A DNA stretch of 64,000 nt, taken from positions 380,240 through 444,239 of the forward strand of contig NBOG01000002.1 of assembly GCA_002104535.1 (NCBI GenBank). The letters run 5' to 3'. Made by a program: the position numbers and the translations under genes. The DNA comes from Cognaticolwellia sediminilitoris (GTDB lineage: Bacteria; Pseudomonadota; Gammaproteobacteria; Enterobacterales; Alteromonadaceae). Shown here piece after piece: positions 40,912-56,168 of this stretch; within the stretch, counting starts at the first letter, position 1, and each line of letters begins with the position of its first letter. The notes beneath the pieces were generated by a model, which was given only the letters and a program-made list of their open reading frames with translations, did no database searches and was not told where the DNA came from.

Positions 40912-41364
40912 TTACTTTTCTCGAATGGGTAATTCTGATGTCAATACCCAGTAGTAATTTAGCTCTTTCATTTTTTGAGAAAAGTCTTCAAAATTTAATG
41001 GTTTTGAAACGTAACCGCTGGCACCATTTTTATAACATTCATCAATTTCTCCGGACGTTGACGATGTACTGATCATGACGACTGGGATATTACACAACTC
41101 TTCATCTGCTTTAATCATTCGCAATGTTTCAATACCGCCTTGTCTTGGCATACGAATATCTAAAAAAACAATATCTGGCCTTGTGTATTTAAGCTTATCT
41201 TCAAAAGGCGATTGGTTTTTTAAAAAGGCAATCGCTTGCTCGCCGTCAAGTACATGATCAATCTGATTTTTGAGATGAAACTCATGAAAGGCATCCATCA
41301 TTAACTCAGCATGATCAACATTGTCTTCAACCATTAAAGCAGAAATAGGTTTATATCGATCCAT
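40912..41364 (-). CDS. Single-domain response regulator (Rcp1-like)
   Basis: 150 residues, one REC domain only: acidic pair E13-D14, phospho-acceptor D69 in IVFLDIRMP, conserved Lys in VSKPLNF. The long loop (NQSPFEDKLKYTRPD) is typical of Rcp1-type regulators that pair with phytochrome-like kinases. About 100 bases downstream of the REC-kinase gene on the same strand. Confidence 0.92.
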   Translation of the reverse strand: MDRYKPISALMVEDNVDHAELMMDAFHEFHLKNQIDHVLDGEQAIAFLKNQSPFEDKLKYTRPDIVFLDIRMPRQGGIETLRMIKADEELCNIPVVMISTSSTSGEIDECYKNGASGYVSKPLNFEDFSQKMKELNYYWVLTSELPIREK

Positions 41365-41467: not shown

Positions 41468-42541
41468 TTATGGCGATTTTTTAAAGATGACCGTGAAGCA
41501 GCTACCTTTAGCTAATTCTGACTCTACTTTTATACACCCCTCATGATGCTCAACGATACGTTTGACGATACTTAATCCTAAGCCAGAACCGGTGTAATTC
41601 TTGTTGTTTTCTAGACGCTGAAACGGTGAGAATATTGTATCCTTATCCTCTAAAGCGAAGCCAATTCCATTATCTTTTACTGAAATCTCAATATAATCAC
41701 CTTTATCAAGGGATGAAAAGGTGATCTCAGGAGGATTTTCGTTAAACTTAATCGCATTACTGAGTAAATTGTGAAAAAGTAAATGCAAAAGTGCAGAGCT
41801 TGCATGTAAATTGGGCATTGTGCCGATAATTTCAGCATTAAAGTCTTGTTCACTGGCAGACTTAATAGAATCTATAACACTGTTAAGCACTTTATTTAAA
41901 TCAACGGTGAAAAATTCTTTATCGCCGTGACTAACCGATAAGTAATGCTGTAAGTCTTTTACTAAGCTATGAATGTTATGAGTACTGGTTTCCAGATATG
42001 TAAACCACTTAGATTCTTCAGGGCTTAAATCTACTCGTTTAATGAGTTCATTTTTAAGTAAATTAGACACGCCTTTAATTCGAACGATATGACCACTAAA
42101 GTCGTGAGAAAGACTAGAGCAAAATGCTTGCATATCTTGATTAAAAGCTTCAATCGTTTGCTGATGTTGCCAGCGTTCTATCGCATATCGGCAAGTTCGG
42201 TATAGCAAAGGCGGGGTTATTTCATCTTTAGGTAGATAATCCTGTACGCCTTGGTTCAGTAGGTCTTTTGCAATGTCGATACTGTTTAGCGATGATAAAA
42301 TTACAATGGGTAAGCCAAAAGTATCGGTGCTTAATAATTCTACTGTTTGCTCAATGGTAGAGTCAGGTAATTGTAAATCAAAAAAACAAATATCAAACTG
42401 CTGTTCTCGTAACCTTTTTAGGCCAGTTAGCAAGGTCGCTTCTGAACAAACCTCTACCTGTTTATCAGACATAGATTTTAACGAATCTTCGATTAATTCG
42501 ACATGATCGGGATTATCTTCAATAAGTAAAATTTTCAACAC
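41468..42541 (-). CDS. Soluble REC-histidine kinase
   Basis: 357 residues with inverted hybrid order. N-terminal REC: E8-D9, phospho-acceptor D55 in CFFDLQLPD, LPKDE Lys. Then a kinase: H146 in SLSHDFSGHIVRI, N-box LLSNAIKFNENP, G-box DNGIGFALEDKDTIFSPF and GSGLGLSIVKRI. No membrane segment. The H-box has SHDF instead of the usual SHDLK. Divergent from the GAF-kinase gene with about 400 bases between. Confidence 0.92.
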   Translation of the reverse strand: MLKILLIEDNPDHVELIEDSLKSMSDKQVEVCSEATLLTGLKRLREQQFDICFFDLQLPDSTIEQTVELLSTDTFGLPIVILSSLNSIDIAKDLLNQGVQDYLPKDEITPPLLYRTCRYAIERWQHQQTIEAFNQDMQAFCSSLSHDFSGHIVRIKGVSNLLKNELIKRVDLSPEESKWFTYLETSTHNIHSLVKDLQHYLSVSHGDKEFFTVDLNKVLNSVIDSIKSASEQDFNAEIIGTMPNLHASSALLHLLFHNLLSNAIKFNENPPEITFSSLDKGDYIEISVKDNGIGFALEDKDTIFSPFQRLENNKNYTGSGLGLSIVKRIVEHHEGCIKVESELAKGSCFTVIFKKSP

Positions 42542-42947
42542 TACATCATCCTATTTTAGCGGTCATAGTGATTTGAGCGGCTTGTTGTCAGCCATTTTAA
42601 TATCAGCTTTAGTGTTTATGATAGATTTCAATGTTATTGGAAAACTAATGATTGATGTTTGTTTTACGCTAACAATTTGTAAATAAGTGATTTACTAGCA
42701 TTTATAAAGTCGTGGTCTACTATATATTACATAGTAGATTGATAATCTGTAGTGTCAAACTTAAAACCATACTTATTACGTCAGGTTAACTATATTACAG
42801 CACAAGCAAGCTGTATTAGGCTCACTTTCAGTGCAGAGTCGATGGCAGTTTAAATAATTAAAAATAGTATTTAAACAAGTAGCTCCAAAGTGTCAGAGGA
42901 ATAGACATTACAAATCTTCTCCTAACAGTGATGAGTTTAAAAGTATC
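42542..42947. other. Divergent intergenic region of the signalling cluster
   Basis: 405 AT-rich bases with no credible ORF. It contains an inverted repeat at 42716-42738 (arms TCTACTAT / ATAGTAGA, 7-base spacer) that could be an operator for both directions. No strong promoter stands out. Confidence 0.5.
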
Positions 42948-44180
42948 ATGAAAATTGCCCCAGTTTCAGAAAACGAAGATGCTCGCCTCAGAGCATTATA
43001 TGACTATAAAATTCTAGATACTGTCAGTGAATTAGCTTACGACCAACTGACAGCATTAGCCTCTAGCATTTGTGGCACGCCAGTGGCACTTGTATCTTTA
43101 GTTGATAAAGAACGACAGTGGTTTAAATCTCACCATGGCATTGATGCCATAGAAACCCCAAGGGAGTGGGCATTTTGCGATCATGCCATTGGTCAAGAAC
43201 AAGTGTTTGAAGTAAGTGATAGCCGATTAGACGAGCGGTTTCATGATAACCCTTTAGTAACTGGAGCAACACAAGTAATTTTCTATGCTGGAGCACCATT
43301 AGTGACTCCAGAAGGGCTACGTATTGGTACGCTTTGTGTTATTGATAATAAACCTGCTCAGTTGAGTGAACAGCAAAAGAGTCAATTAACTATTCTCGCT
43401 AAACAAGTGGTTAATTTATTAGAGTTGTCAAAGGCAAACCGCTCGCGAGAAGGGGTATTGGAAAATTTATTGTCTGTGACTAAATCATTAGAGCAAAAAA
43501 ACAAAGAGCTAGAGCAATTTGTTTATGCGGTTTCTCATGACTTAAAATCACCTTTAGTGACAATCTCAGGATTTGTAACAATTTTAGAAAAGGAACTGGC
43601 CGAATATACATCCGATAAGCAAAAACATCGATTCGAGCGCATTAATCTCAATGTTGAACATATGGCTGAGCTACTGTCAGACTTACTTAATTTATCGCGT
43701 GTACTGAACAAAGATATAGATAAACAAAAACTAGATACCCAGGCTTTAATACTTGATCAATGGCAAGGGTTGTCTTATATGGCTAATAATCTTGATGTTA
43801 ACTTTATCGTGGCAACAGACTTACATGAAATAAATGCGAACGAGACCTTATTCTCACAATGTATCAGCAATATTTTAAGTAACGCAATTCGTTATCGTAA
43901 TCCTGAGATACCACTGAGAATTGAAATACGCTCGTACACTTATGATGGAAATATTTGTATTTCAATTAGTGATAATGGCATTGGCATTAAATCTAGCGAA
44001 CATGACCGAATTTTTAAAGTATTTGAACAGCTTAATAAAGGTGAAGGGAGCGGTATCGGCTTGTGCATTGTAAAAGCGGCGATGGAAAAACACGATGGTC
44101 AAATCAAGTTGGTGTCAACAGAGGGGCAAGGTTCTCGTTTTGAATTGCATTTTCCTTGCGATATTAAGAAAATAAAATAA
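42948..44180 (+). CDS. GAF-domain histidine kinase
   Basis: 410 residues, soluble. N-terminal GAF (about 20-160: ALVSLVDKERQWFKSHHGID, IGTLCVIDN) of the type seen before kinases and cyclases; coiled linker; H-box FVYAVSHDLKSPLVTI with H197; N-box ILSNAIRYRNPE; DNGIGI; GSGIGLCIVKAA. No receiver domain. The catalytic part is closely similar to the kinase at 44814-46223 (for example QKHRFERINLNVEHM and QQHRFNRIISNVENM), so the two are paralogues. 24 bases before the ethylene-receptor-like gene. Confidence 0.93.
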   Translation: MKIAPVSENEDARLRALYDYKILDTVSELAYDQLTALASSICGTPVALVSLVDKERQWFKSHHGIDAIETPREWAFCDHAIGQEQVFEVSDSRLDERFHDNPLVTGATQVIFYAGAPLVTPEGLRIGTLCVIDNKPAQLSEQQKSQLTILAKQVVNLLELSKANRSREGVLENLLSVTKSLEQKNKELEQFVYAVSHDLKSPLVTISGFVTILEKELAEYTSDKQKHRFERINLNVEHMAELLSDLLNLSRVLNKDIDKQKLDTQALILDQWQGLSYMANNLDVNFIVATDLHEINANETLFSQCISNILSNAIRYRNPEIPLRIEIRSYTYDGNICISISDNGIGIKSSEHDRIFKVFEQLNKGEGSGIGLCIVKAAMEKHDGQIKLVSTEGQGSRFELHFPCDIKKIK

Positions 44181-44204: not shown

Positions 44205-44753
44205 ATGCAAGACTGGCTGCAACAATTCATTAACCCATCTTTTATGCCTCATGGACATTGCTACTTATGGCGGTCTGATATTCTATGGACGCACGTCATT
44301 TCAGATGCCGCAATCGGTATCGCTTATTTCCTAATACCTCTTGTATTAGGAGTAATAATTTATAAACGACAAGACGCTTTACCCCATAAAGATATTTTTG
44401 CTTTATTTATCGCTTTTATATTCTTCTGTGGCACCACTCATTTTGTTCAAATTTACGTTACTTGGTATCCACTTTACGAATATCAAGGCTGGATTAAAGC
44501 GCTAACGGCGTTTACCTCAGTGCTGACCGTTATTGTGCTAGCGCCAAAATTACCGCAGTTGATCCGCTTATCAGGTGTTGAAGAAGAGAATAATCGTAAC
44601 CTGGCAGAACTAGCCTTGTTAAAGTCGCAAAATGAACAAATGAATTCAGTATATTCCGCTACGCTCGACCGGGAAGAAAAAATAATGACGATGAAAAAAG
44701 AGGTAAATGAATTATTAGCTGAGTTAGGTAAAGAGCAACGATATGAGCTGTAA
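44205..44753 (+). CDS. Stand-alone ethylene-receptor-type (ETR1-like) membrane sensor domain
   Basis: 182 residues: three membrane helices (about 27-53, 63-87, 96-115) and a C-terminal coiled coil (125-180). Motifs align in register with plant ETR1: ISD with D34 (ETR1 D25), Y41 (Y32), I44-P45 (I35-P36), F71 (F61), C75 and H79 in FCGTTHF (copper ligands C65/H69). In bacteria this domain is normally fused to GAF/kinase modules; here it is a separate gene between two kinases, with AAGGAG upstream. It probably binds Cu(I) and perhaps ethylene or another small alkene, and signals through a partner kinase via the coiled coil. Ligand is inference. Confidence 0.88.
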   Translation: MQDWLQQFINPSFMPHGHCYLWRSDILWTHVISDAAIGIAYFLIPLVLGVIIYKRQDALPHKDIFALFIAFIFFCGTTHFVQIYVTWYPLYEYQGWIKALTAFTSVLTVIVLAPKLPQLIRLSGVEEENNRNLAELALLKSQNEQMNSVYSATLDREEKIMTMKKEVNELLAELGKEQRYEL

Positions 44754-44813: not shown

Positions 44814-46223
44814 ATGAATAGTAAAAACCTGACATTAACGGCGCTAATACTATTTTTCATTACCCTTGAAGTATTAATTTCCTTGGACTTTGTTCGTCAG
44901 GAAGAAGGTATTAGACAGAAGCAAGTAGCTGCTTTTCAAGCAATAATTGAATTACAAAATCAAATTGGCTATGTCGGGCTGATCCATAATTTTAAAAACT
45001 ATATACTCAGACCGGAAGAAGTTTCTTATCGTGAAAATGGCTTGAAAAACGTGCAAGCGGCATTAAAACAAGTTGAAGTTTTAGAGTTTTTAAGTGCTGA
45101 TTTATTAGATGAGCTAATCATGCCAGCAACAAGAAATATGCTTGAAGCTTATCAACAAAGGTTAGAAGCACTACCTACAATGCTTGAAAAAAACATGAGT
45201 AGACGTGAGATAGATGAAGTAGTGCGCTTTAATGATGCGCCGTCTCGACATGAAATTGTAACCACGGCTGAAAAAATAGCTAAAGAAATAGAAGTAAATA
45301 TATCTGAAATAACTTATAGCAGTTTACGAGCCAGCTTAGTGACCTTATTTGCACTGTTTGTGACTTTATTTATTATGATGCGATATTATTTTCGTGATCA
45401 GCAAAAAGCATTATCAGCCAGTAAAAATTTAAATTTAAATCTTCAAGAAAACAAAAAGAACTTCCAACGATCTCAACGCATTTTAATTAGTGTTATGAAG
45501 GATGTAGAAAAGGAAAAACATGAAGCATCACGATTGAATGAACAGTTAAGTACTAAAAATAAGGAAATGGAGCAGTTTATCTATACCGTTTCACATGATT
45601 TGAAATCACCGTTAGTCACTATAGGCAGCTTTGCAAAAAATTTGATGACTGAGCTATCAGAGGTGATAAATGAAAAACAGCAACATAGATTTAATCGAAT
45701 TATTTCAAACGTAGAGAATATGGAAGCTCTTTTAACGGATTTATTGGATTTGTCTAAAATTGTTCAACAGGAAATCACCATCTCCGAAGTTAACGTAAAA
45801 CAGGTTGTTGATGCGCAGTGCCTGGTACTTGAAAATGATTTAGAAGAAAGTAATGCCATCATAAATGTTGCTGATAATATTGTCGATATTAACGCCAATG
45901 AACGGCTACTATCTGAAGCGATCTTAAATCTACTGAGTAATGCTATTAGATATAGAGATCCTGATCGGCAACTTGTTGTCGATATATATAGTTCAGAATC
46001 TGAATCATGTACCACTTTGCACGTAAAGGATAATGGAGTTGGCATTGATGCAAAGTATCATGAACTTATTTTTAGGATATTCGAGCGACTATCAACACAT
46101 GAAGGGACTGGTGTTGGCCTTACTATAGTTCGAACAATAATGGATAAACATCACGGTAAAATATTACTTGAATCATCCTTAGGGCAGGGCGCTTGTTTTT
46201 CGTTAACCTTTCCAAATAAATAA
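44814..46223 (+). CDS. Membrane sensor histidine kinase
   Basis: 469 residues: TM1 (7-26), a helical periplasmic sensor of about 140 residues (27-170), TM2 (171-190), coiled linker, H-box IYTVSHDLKSPLVTI with H261, N-box NLLSNAIRYRDPD, DNGVGI and GTGVGLTIVRTI. No receiver domain. Kinase core is paralogous to the GAF-kinase upstream. Follows the ethylene-receptor-like gene by 60 bases, probably same operon. Confidence 0.92.
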   Translation: MNSKNLTLTALILFFITLEVLISLDFVRQEEGIRQKQVAAFQAIIELQNQIGYVGLIHNFKNYILRPEEVSYRENGLKNVQAALKQVEVLEFLSADLLDELIMPATRNMLEAYQQRLEALPTMLEKNMSRREIDEVVRFNDAPSRHEIVTTAEKIAKEIEVNISEITYSSLRASLVTLFALFVTLFIMMRYYFRDQQKALSASKNLNLNLQENKKNFQRSQRILISVMKDVEKEKHEASRLNEQLSTKNKEMEQFIYTVSHDLKSPLVTIGSFAKNLMTELSEVINEKQQHRFNRIISNVENMEALLTDLLDLSKIVQQEITISEVNVKQVVDAQCLVLENDLEESNAIINVADNIVDINANERLLSEAILNLLSNAIRYRDPDRQLVVDIYSSESESCTTLHVKDNGVGIDAKYHELIFRIFERLSTHEGTGVGLTIVRTIMDKHHGKILLESSLGQGACFSLTFPNK

Positions 46224-46750: not shown

Positions 46751-47851
46751 ATGAATTCAAAAATAGTAAATATTGGGCTCGCTATTGCCCTAAGTGCATT
46801 ATGCTTAACAGCCGTTGCGGGTAAAGATGATGTGCCAAACGGCAAACCATTCCAGAATATTCAAGAACAAGTAGATGCCACTAAATCGGCCCTAGATGCT
46901 GCAAATGAAGCTCGAACAGCAGCAATAATAGCACTTGAAGCTGCTGACAGTGCACTACGTGCTAAGGACGAAGTTTTACAAGGTCAAATTAATGAAATCA
47001 AACTCACTATTGCCGAGGAAGTCGCACGTATAAATAGTGAAATCAATGGCTTAGAGCAAAAGATTAGCGAAGTGGAAGCCGGAAGTGATGAAGCTGATGC
47101 TTTACAGGATATAATCATTGATCGCCTTAGTGATGCAATAAACTTACTTCGAAATCGTGCAGGAGCAGCCGAAGAAGCATCAAAATTACAAAATGCACAA
47201 ATTGACTTGCTTTGGGCACGAGCTCAAGCAATTGAGATGAAGTCAGATGCTCAATACGTGGAAGCTAGGGCAAAATTTATCAATGTAGAGCAAAGTATAA
47301 TAAACGCACTCGCGGCAGCAGATTTAGCCTATAGCCTAGGTGGACAGGCTATGGCAAGAGCAAATCAAGCTTATGCTTTAGCTGTCAGTGACGTGGACTA
47401 CAACGCATTACTATCTCAATTAAATACAGTTAAGGCTATTGTAAATAAACTTGATAACCACCTTAGTGCGGTTTGTCCCATTGGCTTTTATGTGATTGGA
47501 GTCAATAGTGACGGGGCTTTAAAATGTCGGACTATAACCGATACGGTTTCTATTACTCAGGCCTTAACTGCAAAAAGTTATTGTACTGAAGACACTTTCT
47601 TTGGCTGCCTTGATTATGCTTATTACCAGATTGGTACGGCTTTTTGCCCTATTGGATATTTACGTACAGCCACAAATAGATTCATGCCTAATGGTGTAGA
47701 CCACATCAGTTATACCGAATATCTAGAAGAAGGTGCAGGACATGCTACTTATCAAACCAACACATTTGATAGTCCATTTACTAATACGGGCTCTGTGACT
47801 GTGAGTTGTGCCAGAAGATATTTCGACAGAACAGTCTACGGTAACAATTAA
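46751..47851 (+). CDS. Secreted coiled-coil protein with Cys-rich C-terminal domain
   Basis: 366 residues. Signal peptide 1-23 (IGLAIALSALCLTAVA), then an Ala/Glu/Gln-rich, almost continuous helical coiled coil (about 35-235) and a C-terminal globular domain with six Cys: AVCPIGFYVIGVNSDG, LKC, YCTEDTFFGC, FCPIGYL, SCARR. The CPIGFY...CPIGYL repeat suggests an internal duplication, and an even Cys count fits disulfides in the periplasm or outside. Architecture is that of a stalk with a terminal binding head. I do not recognise a named family. Confidence 0.78.
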   Translation: MNSKIVNIGLAIALSALCLTAVAGKDDVPNGKPFQNIQEQVDATKSALDAANEARTAAIIALEAADSALRAKDEVLQGQINEIKLTIAEEVARINSEINGLEQKISEVEAGSDEADALQDIIIDRLSDAINLLRNRAGAAEEASKLQNAQIDLLWARAQAIEMKSDAQYVEARAKFINVEQSIINALAAADLAYSLGGQAMARANQAYALAVSDVDYNALLSQLNTVKAIVNKLDNHLSAVCPIGFYVIGVNSDGALKCRTITDTVSITQALTAKSYCTEDTFFGCLDYAYYQIGTAFCPIGYLRTATNRFMPNGVDHISYTEYLEEGAGHATYQTNTFDSPFTNTGSVTVSCARRYFDRTVYGNN

Positions 47852-53490: not shown

Positions 53491-54282
53491 TTGAGCAGGA
53501 TGTTGAGAAGTATAAAAAAATCCACACTGTTACTAACATTATTATTTTACGTTACTGTCATAGTTTCATTTGGCTCTATCCGAGTGCAGGCTAAAGAATA
53601 TGTTATTGGCGTTGAAGATATTAGTTATTATCCTTTTTATGATTTTTCTGCAGATAATCTAGAACGCCCAAGCTTTACTAAAGAATTACTAAGTACCTTC
53701 TTTCTACATCAAGGTTACAAGTTTAGTTTTGTAGCCTTGCCTTTGAAACGTTTTGATAAGTGGTATGTCGAAGAAGCGATCGACTTTAAATTTCCTGATA
53801 ACCCTCGTTGGCGCTCTCAAGAAAGTAAAAAGCTCAATTTATTCTACAGCGAACCTGTTTTACAGTTAATTGCCGGTAGTTATGTCTTGAAAAAAAATAA
53901 AGATATGCCTCGTAAAGCCGTAAAACGATTAGGTACAATTTTAGGGTTTGCTTCTACTCTTTGGTACGACCGATTAGACAATAATACACTTGAATTAACC
54001 GAAGCTTCGTCTTCGTTTAGCTTAGTTAAACATTTATTAACTGGTAATGTTGACGTGGTTAATATTGATAAGAACGTCATAAATTACAACCTTAAATTAT
54101 TAAAGCACGATGCTAGCGCTGTAGTATTGAATCCACATATTATCCATCAGCATTTTTCGTATTACTTTTCTACAATCCATCATCCTGAAATTATTGAGGA
54201 ATTTAATCAGTTTTTAATTGAGCAAAATCAGCTTGTTTCAACGTTGAAATTGAAATATGAAATTATTGAATCACCTGAATAA
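53491..54282 (+). CDS. Solute-binding-type periplasmic protein, paralogue 1 of 3
   Basis: 263 residues. Signal peptide (LLLTLLFYVTVIVSFGSIRVQA), then a domain with the plan of family 3 solute-binding proteins (YVIGVEDISYYPFYDF at the ligand start, LLSTFFLHQGYKF for the first lobe, IAGSYVLKK at the hinge, LLTGNVDVVNIDK in the second lobe). Very similar to the next two genes. No transporter genes adjacent. The frame opens at TTG 53491; ATG 53500 is the alternative. Confidence 0.82.
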   Translation: MSRMLRSIKKSTLLLTLLFYVTVIVSFGSIRVQAKEYVIGVEDISYYPFYDFSADNLERPSFTKELLSTFFLHQGYKFSFVALPLKRFDKWYVEEAIDFKFPDNPRWRSQESKKLNLFYSEPVLQLIAGSYVLKKNKDMPRKAVKRLGTILGFASTLWYDRLDNNTLELTEASSSFSLVKHLLTGNVDVVNIDKNVINYNLKLLKHDASAVVLNPHIIHQHFSYYFSTIHHPEIIEEFNQFLIEQNQLVSTLKLKYEIIESPE

Positions 54283-54432
54283 AATTGACACTTTATCAAC
54301 TCAGCCTACAATCTATTAATAATATAAACGAATATCGATACATTGGATTAGTGGTTTATGTTTATGGTTATTTTTACCATCATATTTCATTACAAACACT
54401 CATATGATCATATTGAGTATTAACCGGCGAAT

Positions 54433-55224
54433 ATGGGGGAGTCATTGATAAAGCTTAGTCAAAAGCAACTTGTTAGTTTATTTGTGTTATTCCTTGCTGT
54501 AAATATCACTTGCGTCTCATCTTTGCTTCAGGCCAAAGAGTACCTTATTGGCGTTGAAGATATTAGTTACTACCCGTTATATGACTTTACTTCCAAAGAT
54601 TTAAATAATGAAAGTTTTACTCAAGAATTACTAAGCACATTTTTTAGTCTCCATGGTTATAAAGTTAAATTCGTGGCTTTGCCAATCAAACGATTTAATA
54701 AGTGGTATGTCGAAGATGCGATAGATTTTAAGTTTCCCGATAATCCTCGTTGGCGTAAAGACAAGTCTGAAAAACTTGATGTTACCTATAGCCAGCCAGT
54801 ATTAAATCTTATTGCTGGCAGCTATGTTTTGAAAAAAAATAAAAAAATGCTGCGCAAAGATGTCAAGCGCTTAGGCACCATTTATGGTTTTCACCCAACA
54901 TTTTGGTTCGACAGGGTGCAGAATAATACGCTGGATTTAATTGAAGACTCATCTTCAATTAGTATTGTTAAACATTTATTAATGGGCAATGTAGAAGCTA
55001 TCAATATTGATTCAAATGTGATCAACTATAACCTAAAATTATTACAGCAAGATAAAGACGCCGTCGTGTTGAATGAAGGAATTATGCATGGGCGCTTTTC
55101 ATTTTACTTTTCGACTATTAATTACCCTGAAATCATCCAACAGTTCGACGAGTTCCTAATAACTCATCAGGAAGCTATAACTGAATTGAAAACTAAATAT
55201 GGCATTGTTGAGACCAGTGATTAA
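54433..55224 (+). CDS. Solute-binding-type periplasmic protein, paralogue 2 of 3
   Basis: 263 residues, same plan as paralogue 1: YLIGVEDISYYPLYDF, KWYVEDAIDFKFPDNPRWR, AGSYVLKKNKKM, NVINYNLKLLQQDKDAVV. Signal peptide ends near SLLQAKEY. GGGGGAG directly follows ATG 54433 and sits 3 bases before an in-frame TTG at 54445, so the TTG may be the true start. Confidence 0.82.
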   Translation: MGESLIKLSQKQLVSLFVLFLAVNITCVSSLLQAKEYLIGVEDISYYPLYDFTSKDLNNESFTQELLSTFFSLHGYKVKFVALPIKRFNKWYVEDAIDFKFPDNPRWRKDKSEKLDVTYSQPVLNLIAGSYVLKKNKKMLRKDVKRLGTIYGFHPTFWFDRVQNNTLDLIEDSSSISIVKHLLMGNVEAINIDSNVINYNLKLLQQDKDAVVLNEGIMHGRFSFYFSTINYPEIIQQFDEFLITHQEAITELKTKYGIVETSD

Positions 55225-55361
55225 AAACGCTTCAGTGACACTTACTATTAAAAAGTAGGGCAATAAACCTAGTTAACTCCTTTACCCTTGTCTTAAAATT
55301 GTATGAAAAATAGCTTAATTGTGCTTATAATAATTTAATTGCAAATGCATTAGGCTTCACT

Positions 55362-56168
55362 TTGAAACAACCTAAAACTAAACTAGTAGGACATAATAAA
55401 GCGCTATTTCATTGTGTTTTATTTTTTTTAGCTATTACTAGCAGTTTTAGTTTTGCGCAAACAAAAGAGTTTATTATTGGTGTTGAGGATATTGATTATT
55501 ATCCACTGTATGACTTTTCAAGTAATAACTTTGAAAGAGAAAGTTTTACCAGAGAATTACTCAGTACTTTTTTTCGCTCGCATGGCTATAAGTTTAAATT
55601 TGTTGCCTTGCCGATTAAGCGATTTGATAAATGGTATGAAGAGGATGGTATAGACTTTAAATACCCAGATAGTCCTCGCTGGCGTAAACGTATCACTAAA
55701 AAATTAGACCTAACCTTCAGTCAACCCGTTTTACAATTAACAGCGGGAAGTTATGTACTTAAAAAAAATCAAAATATAAGCCGACAATCGGTTAAACGTT
55801 TAGGGATTATGTTCGGTTTTTTTCCAACGCTTTGGTATGATAAATTGCAAAATGGAACGCTTGAAAAATTTGAAGCACATTCCTCGCTTAGTTTGGTCAA
55901 GCATTTGCTGCGCGGTAATGTTGATGTAATTGATACTGATAATAATGTGATTAATTATAATTTGAAAAAATTACATATAAATGAAGATGAAATTGTTTTA
56001 AATCAGCAAATTAAGCATGTACGTTATGCGCACTATTTTTCGACCATTAAGCATCTTAAAATAATGCAAGAATTTGATGACTTTATGGTTAATCAAACTG
56101 AATTAGTAGCAAACATTAAGAAAAAGTATAACATCGTTGAAGCTTCAGAACCGCCAACATCTCAATAA
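55362..56168 (+). CDS. Solute-binding-type periplasmic protein, paralogue 3 of 3
   Basis: 268 residues opening at TTG 55362, with AGG 8-10 bases upstream and no nearby ATG before the signal peptide (LFFLAITSSFSFAQT). Core strings FIIGVEDIDYYPLYDF, RFDKWYEEDGIDFKYPDSPRWR, AGSYVLKKNQNI and NVINYNLKKL match paralogues 1 and 2. More diverged in the second lobe, with an extra C-terminal SEPPTSQ. Confidence 0.82.
   Translation: MKQPKTKLVGHNKALFHCVLFFLAITSSFSFAQTKEFIIGVEDIDYYPLYDFSSNNFERESFTRELLSTFFRSHGYKFKFVALPIKRFDKWYEEDGIDFKYPDSPRWRKRITKKLDLTFSQPVLQLTAGSYVLKKNQNISRQSVKRLGIMFGFFPTLWYDKLQNGTLEKFEAHSSLSLVKHLLRGNVDVIDTDNNVINYNLKKLHINEDEIVLNQQIKHVRYAHYFSTIKHLKIMQEFDDFMVNQTELVANIKKKYNIVEASEPPTSQ

Follow-up and report, generated by a model that had tools for sequence, protein, structure and literature searches.

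A free-standing ETR1-type ethylene-binding domain encoded between two histidine kinases, a candidate sensor subunit for a split two-component receptor in Colwellia-type bacteria

The window analyzed here, a 64,000-nucleotide stretch of the genome of Cognaticolwellia sediminilitoris (contig NBOG01000002.1), contains a signal transduction cassette (Table 1) that includes an intact ORF with an ATG start, the frame of which closes at 182 aa. The encoded protein matches the Pfam family ETR1_N (PF25487) with a score of 110.3 bits (cut-off, 27), and the match spans residues 26-122 of the protein and positions 2-97 of the 97 in the profile. No second Pfam family was detected in this protein at E 0.001. 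With the ethylene-binding domain (EBD) as the sole domain found, a kinase or other output domain is absent, so that the protein is not a one-chain ethylene-receptor histidine kinase. The EBD gene is flanked by two kinase genes on the same strand, HK1, which ends 24 nt before it, and HK2, which starts 60 nt after it. The two kinases are paralogous (41-46% between the HK2s of relatives and the HK1 of the window, over about 230 aa). Thus, the preliminary description of this locus, made from the sequence alone, correctly recognized a free ETR1-type gene between two paralogous kinases. HK1 shows a single hydropathy peak, located inside its GAF domain, and has no evident membrane anchor. In HK2, the two transmembrane (TM) segments are separated by about 145 residues without a Pfam match. 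Elsewhere in the window, positions 46751-47851 encode a secreted-looking protein of 366 aa with a helical-looking N-terminal part and no Pfam match, and a run of three adjacent plus-strand ORFs (53491-56168; 263-268 aa each), also without Pfam matches, is suggestive of paralogues by the similar lengths.

Table 1. Genes and features of the cassette, in window coordinates
Feature	Coordinates	Strand	Description
Single-domain response regulator, divergent arm	40912-41364	-	150 aa; Pfam Response_reg E 8e-19; orthologue 75-77% identical, in the same place, in 5/5 other cassettes
RR-HK, receiver-HATPase protein, divergent arm	41468-42541	-	357 aa; Pfam Response_reg and HATPase_c; orthologue 53-56% identical in 5/5 other cassettes
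Gap of 406 nt, REC-GGDEF-EAL gene missing	42542-42947		this place is occupied by a gene of 567-583 aa in the other 5 cassettes
HK1, GAF histidine kinase	42948-44180	+	410 aa; Pfam GAF, HisKA, HATPase_c; without MED segment
Free-standing ETR1-type (EBD) protein	44205-44753	+	182 aa; Pfam ETR1_N E 5.7e-32
Cys75 and His79 of the EBD protein	44427-44441	+	Cys75 at 44427-44429, His79 at 44439-44441; aligned with AtETR1 Cys65 and His69
C-terminal tail of the EBD protein	44601-44750	+	conserved core, residues 156-180, at 44670-44744
HK2, membrane histidine kinase	44814-46223	+	469 aa; Pfam HisKA, HATPase_c; two TM segments by hydropathy
MED segment of HK2	45441-45569	+	lies between TM2 and His261; residues 210-252, with the core ISVMKD at 225

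The hydrophobic stretches of the 182-aa protein fit three membrane helices, and an AlphaFold model obtained with six sequences (pLDDT 69.7, pTM 0.42, that is, of moderate confidence) includes helices at residues 27-54, 62-87 and 91-120, followed by one long helix at 123-174, in agreement with the three-helix domain noted previously. Sequence searches against solved structures gave no credible match (the top ones had E 5.2 and 0.47), and no fold match was obtained at E <= 0.001.

Matches to the 182-aa protein were found in 90 of the 395 genomes of the family, the source genome included, and a free, full-length version is present in six. Besides the source genome, these are G557, G422, G623, G438 and G491 (5 of the 394 other family genomes), with 67-71% identity. 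Because these five genomes carry full-length free orthologues, a recent gene break, an assembly error and a sequencing artefact are ruled out. The HK1-EBD-HK2 trio and its order are retained in all six genomes that possess the free EBD. In the five other cassettes, the regulator and RR-HK genes lie on one strand, and the genes for the REC-GGDEF-EAL protein, HK1, EBD and HK2 are arranged divergently (the REC-GGDEF-EAL domains were identified by Pfam in the G422 protein and by similar translations in the other four). No remnant of the REC-GGDEF-EAL gene was found in the corresponding gap of the window. An orthologue of the N-terminal part of HK2 was detected at E 2.2e-56 or better in all six holders of the free EBD; in 16 non-holder genomes, this part had no match in 14 and partial matches at 24-29% in two. 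This co-occurrence of HK2 with the EBD could merely mirror gain and loss of the cassette as a whole. The GAF part of HK1 has matches in 17 of the 21 genomes searched, the best of them in the free-EBD holders, and no second cassette was seen around the HK1-like kinases of G407, G438 and G491.

Conservation of the gene trio had been proposed as a check on the split-receptor idea, and a shuffled gene order together with fusion of the domain elsewhere as an argument against it. The order turned out to be conserved; fused EBDs do exist, and one of 390 aa, joined to a kinase, is encoded in the same genome (contig C1; L065:4733-8069). Downstream of this fused gene lie genes for a stand-alone regulator and a REC-GGDEF-EAL protein, the latter sharing 35% identity with its counterpart in the G438 cassette.

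Beyond the family, EBD matches at E 0.001 were detected in 21 of 394 genomes of the order, 16 of 369 of the class and 29 of 398 of the phylum (overlapping sets). These surveys yielded two more intact free EBDs, of 198 aa (G991) and 227 aa (G039), each followed by a PAS kinase gene, 3 nt off or overlapping, with GGDEF genes nearby. The free-standing EBD is rare, not unique; two distant lineages also have one. In the EBD tree, the six Colwellia-type free proteins form one well supported clade, G991 and G039 are unplaced, and the free state requires three changes; a single origin of the free EBDs is neither demonstrated nor excluded by this tree. Among the matches listed for the family, all are frames of at least 322 aa save the six orthologues, a 79-aa fragment in G694, and the 242-aa frame of G698, which was left out of the counts because the match sits at a contig edge. 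Many of the family frames, of 322-331 aa, are similar in length to a 323-aa protein of G733 (L110:6707-7678), in which Pfam shows the EBD fused straight to GGDEF, a likely direct link to cyclic di-GMP. A different kind of gene is found in G768 (L108:9805-10221), where a protein of 138 aa resembles ETR1_N (E 2.8e-10), has a Cys...His pair and is encoded among genes that, by eye, suggest phage structural proteins and integrases. It would be unusual for a phage to carry an ethylene-type domain, and no relatives of this prophage protein were found in the phage collection.

The key residues named in the preliminary description (D34, Y41, I44, P45, F71, C75 and H79) are all present in the 182-aa protein, with one amendment to the register: in the AtETR1 numbering, the counterpart of Ile62, one of the seven binding residues of AtETR1, is I72, also present, and F71 corresponds to Phe61. 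The AtETR1 residue that matches Pro45 is another of the seven. Across 78 aligned EBDs, the respective columns are conserved in 74 (D), 74 (Y), 70 (I44), 75 (F), 72 (I72), 76 (C) and 75 (H) sequences, and that of K98 in 75; Pro45 is the least conserved binding column (63 of 78). In four of the six free Colwellia-type EBDs, Thr replaces Pro45, and since the matching Pro is a binding residue in AtETR1, ligand binding may vary among the orthologues. The role of the AtETR1 residues aligned with Cys75 and His79 is covered in passages of PMC11819568, where AzoEtr1, which carries the seven binding residues, is described as binding ethylene. The 182-aa protein may bind copper and ethylene, as the preliminary description had also inferred. 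A split sensor for some other ligand, be it copper itself or another gas or olefin, appears rather unlikely to us, yet it is the most serious of the alternatives. It would accommodate the Thr substitutions as well as the nature of the host, a relative of Colwellia species with no visible link to plants, and ethylene binding has been shown for just a few EBDs, AzoEtr1 among them. However, D34, Y41, I44, I72, C75, H79 and K98 are invariant in the eight aligned free proteins, which argues against this alternative.

The free EBDs share a second feature, a C-terminal tail. In the eight intact free proteins, its consensus is mostly RE.(R/K)(I/V)..(L/M)K.EVN.L, and a Tyr lies close to the C-terminus; the invariant positions are R156, E157, E166, N168, L170 and Y180. 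Among the 80 distinct EBD frames in the fetched loci, which take in a part of the family matches and in which fusion was judged by frame length and in a few cases checked with Pfam, the tail is present in 8 of the 8 intact free proteins and in none of the 71 frames of at least 323 aa; the former count is partly circular, given that only two of the eight are not seeds and these are near copies of seeds, whereas the latter is not. The tail model was built from seven seeds, six of them from free EBDs. The tail is missing from one further free-standing EBD-like frame, the ninth, which encodes a divergent protein of 148 aa in a prophage. With a model devoid of Colwellia seeds, the tails of the six Colwellia-type EBDs score 16.7-39.3 bits, that of the window protein 33.9 bits. 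The tail corresponds to no named family in Pfam or NCBIfam, where it gave just sub-threshold, coiled-coil-like matches, and elsewhere in the source genome only weak matches to the tail were found (E 1.2 and 8.3).

Searching with the tail model identified 66 places in 48 of 398 genomes. In the best 30 of the 66, the window protein included, the tail is C-terminal in 17, followed by a kinase H-box in the same ORF in eight, and undecided in five. Fifteen of the 16 foreign C-terminal tail proteins were fetched (the remaining one, L138, lies at a contig edge), and none of the 15 contains HisKA or HATPase; the next gene encodes a kinase in nine, and in six a periplasmic binding protein is followed by a kinase. 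The kinase-less sensors that end in the tail include ones of the PAS, CHASE5, PocR and GAF types, and are mostly encoded just before a kinase; in Vitreoscilla, the gene for a CHASE5-PAS protein with the tail overlaps that for a PocR-PAS kinase. The 182-aa protein has the features by which we delimit this group, namely, the tail, no kinase in the chain, and a kinase, HK2, downstream. A second, unseeded set consists of the 31 remaining distinct ORFs, with five second tails in already counted ORFs omitted. In this set, 18 proteins end in the tail, none with a kinase in the same ORF, and for 10 of the 18 a kinase starts within about 1.2 kb downstream. Of the other eight, five have an HD-GYP gene, not a kinase, within about 0.8 kb, and in the remaining three, the next element is a PAS protein cut by the contig end, a protein without a Pfam match, or the contig end itself. 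The tails near HD-GYP genes are low-scoring variants (17-25 bits). Such variant tails (e.g., REFRIKELRDE) occur in kinase-less proteins near PAS/HD-GYP proteins at L202:3541-7943, L203:1411-5036, L205:2034-5440, L209:3740-7461 and L210:4977-7921, which means that the output partner may be something other than a kinase.

The kinases encoded next to tail proteins have a recognizable feature of their own, a helix with the pattern S(R/Q)..LLS.M(E/Q/K)D ahead of the kinase core, which HK2 shares with other tail-partner kinases and which we denote the MED segment. Among 58 kinase frames, it scores at least 11 bits, a threshold picked after the scores were seen, in 27, all of them tail partners or tail-containing; 10 of these 27 are among the 11 seeds of the model, and some of the others are near copies. 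The 31 negative frames include one tail partner, and MED is found in none of the 30 that are not tail-linked. After removal of the seeds, 17 of 18 tail-linked frames are positive vs 0 of 30 others (Fisher 4e-12, with relatedness ignored and the threshold post hoc). The G991 kinase, a seed, was missed by the filter that defined the 58 frames because its G-box differs. In the first fetched set, MED is present in 13 of 15 partner kinases (four of these 13 served as seeds). Among the unseeded ORFs, the 10 split partner kinases reach at least 11 bits in four cases, 9.6-9.8 in two and no more than 5.0 in four, and 10 of 13 ORFs with an internal tail contain MED at threshold, a kinase core after the tail being seen in nine of the 13. 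Judging from these numbers, the MED segment is common among tail partners, not universal. The one-chain proteins display the order tail, often PocR (recognized by eye), MED, kinase, so that the split systems resemble this one-chain module divided between two genes.

This distribution bears on the choice between the two kinases of the cassette. With models lacking Colwellia seeds, MED scores 11.4-20.5 bits in all six HK2s and no more than 1.0 in the six HK1s; the weakest held-out score, that of the G422 HK2 (11.4 bits), corresponds to E 0.14 for 4000 sequences. Because MED singles out HK2 in this manner, HK2, rather than both kinases, is the predicted partner. A structure model of HK2 was too poor (pLDDT 39.9) and was discarded. 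Since the tail and MED are both helical, a bias in composition may be at play. The preliminary description had envisaged a receptor split between the sensor and both kinases; the split is supported by the trio order and the tail, but the joint partnership is not, given the lack of MED in the six HK1s. Coupling of the sensor to HK1, or to both kinases in a mixed receptor, is accordingly improbable: HK1 does lie directly upstream in all six cassettes, and the paralogous kinase cores make mixed dimers possible, but HK1 has no evident anchor in the membrane and no MED, and in both distant lineages (G991 and G039) the kinase is the downstream gene. Far less plausible still is a 182-aa protein that lost its kinase and persists as a decoy or anchor with no signalling partner, for which the lack of a catalytic domain could be cited, considering that the tail and most ligand residues are kept across three genera, at 67-71% identity, and that the cassette is retained. 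Taken together, the domain, its residues, the conserved cassette, the tail, the MED segment and the co-occurrence lead us to favor, with modest confidence, a split two-component receptor in which the 182-aa protein is the sensor half, ethylene the probable ligand and HK2 the partner.

We propose a mechanism for this split receptor in which the ligand, the copper, the contact, the direction of regulation and the output are our extrapolation. Ethylene, or an olefin like it, is the most likely small ligand of the three-helix membrane domain, which would bind it via Cu(I) attached to Cys75 and His79. The ligand would change the long helix that follows the third membrane helix, carrying the signal into the cytoplasm, where the conserved tail would pack on the MED helix of HK2, between the membrane helix of this kinase and the phosphorylated His261. 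The core of MED is about equally distant, some 36 residues, from TM2 ahead of it and from His261 beyond it, and the tail core starts about 36 residues after helix 3. The docked tail would set the kinase/phosphatase balance of HK2, which thus might receive two inputs, one from its own periplasmic domain and one from the ethylene-type sensor. The output would be relayed by the receiver proteins of the cassette, the stand-alone response regulator among them, and in five of the six cassettes also by the REC-GGDEF-EAL enzyme, so that it probably involves cyclic di-GMP and biofilm or motility.

A broader possibility, which we put forward tentatively and would not call probable, is that this is a general plug-and-socket arrangement. 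Unrelated kinase-less sensors, namely, ethylene-type, PAS, CHASE5, PocR, GAF and periplasmic-binding ones, would share one tail that docks on the MED segment of a separate kinase or, in its variant form, on PAS/HD-GYP cyclic di-GMP enzymes, making the sensors interchangeable subunits, the ethylene-type receptor among them. If the tail and MED are indeed a general coupling pair, the partners of many kinase-less sensors would be predictable from sequence, and modular biosensor parts could be at hand. A naturally split receptor with a predicted kinase partner would allow signal transmission from an ETR1-type domain, which to our knowledge has yet to be explained in plants, to be probed by subunit swaps. 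The 182-aa protein and its cassette also point to ethylene or copper sensing possibly tied to cyclic di-GMP in Colwellia-type bacteria.

Several known systems invite comparison. Like the plant ETR1 family, the 182-aa protein possesses the ETR1_N domain, the Cys/His pair and the Lys in helix 3. Plant ETR1 has GAF and kinase domains in the same chain; in contrast, the 182-aa protein has neither and belongs to a bacterial gene cluster. A separate sensor that tunes the kinase encoded by a neighboring gene, with effects on biofilms, is known from H-NOX/HnoK and NosP/NahK. The H-NOX and NosP sensors are soluble haem proteins, whereas the sensor described here is a membrane domain, probably binding Cu(I), with a coupling tail. 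Bacterial ethylene receptors have already been reported, with sensor and kinase in one chain, in passages of PMC11819568 and PMC6944256; among the matches listed in open-licence PMC papers, none describes an EBD that stands alone, the tail or the MED segment. SynEtr1 of Synechocystis and AzoEtr1 of Azospirillum brasilense (PMC11819568) resemble the present system in the three-helix domain, the binding residues and the two-component output with a response regulator, and differ from it in that the sensor and kinase form one chain (EBD-PAS-HK, 525 aa, in AzoEtr1), rather than being separated into a 182-aa protein with a tail and a kinase. The G039 free EBD has an ERT stretch that precedes the tail. 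The S-helix, as described in PMC1592074, is likewise a conserved helical linker between sensor and kinase; it is, however, typified by ERT and connects domains of one protein, whereas the tail and MED have other signatures and, in the split systems, are located on two proteins.
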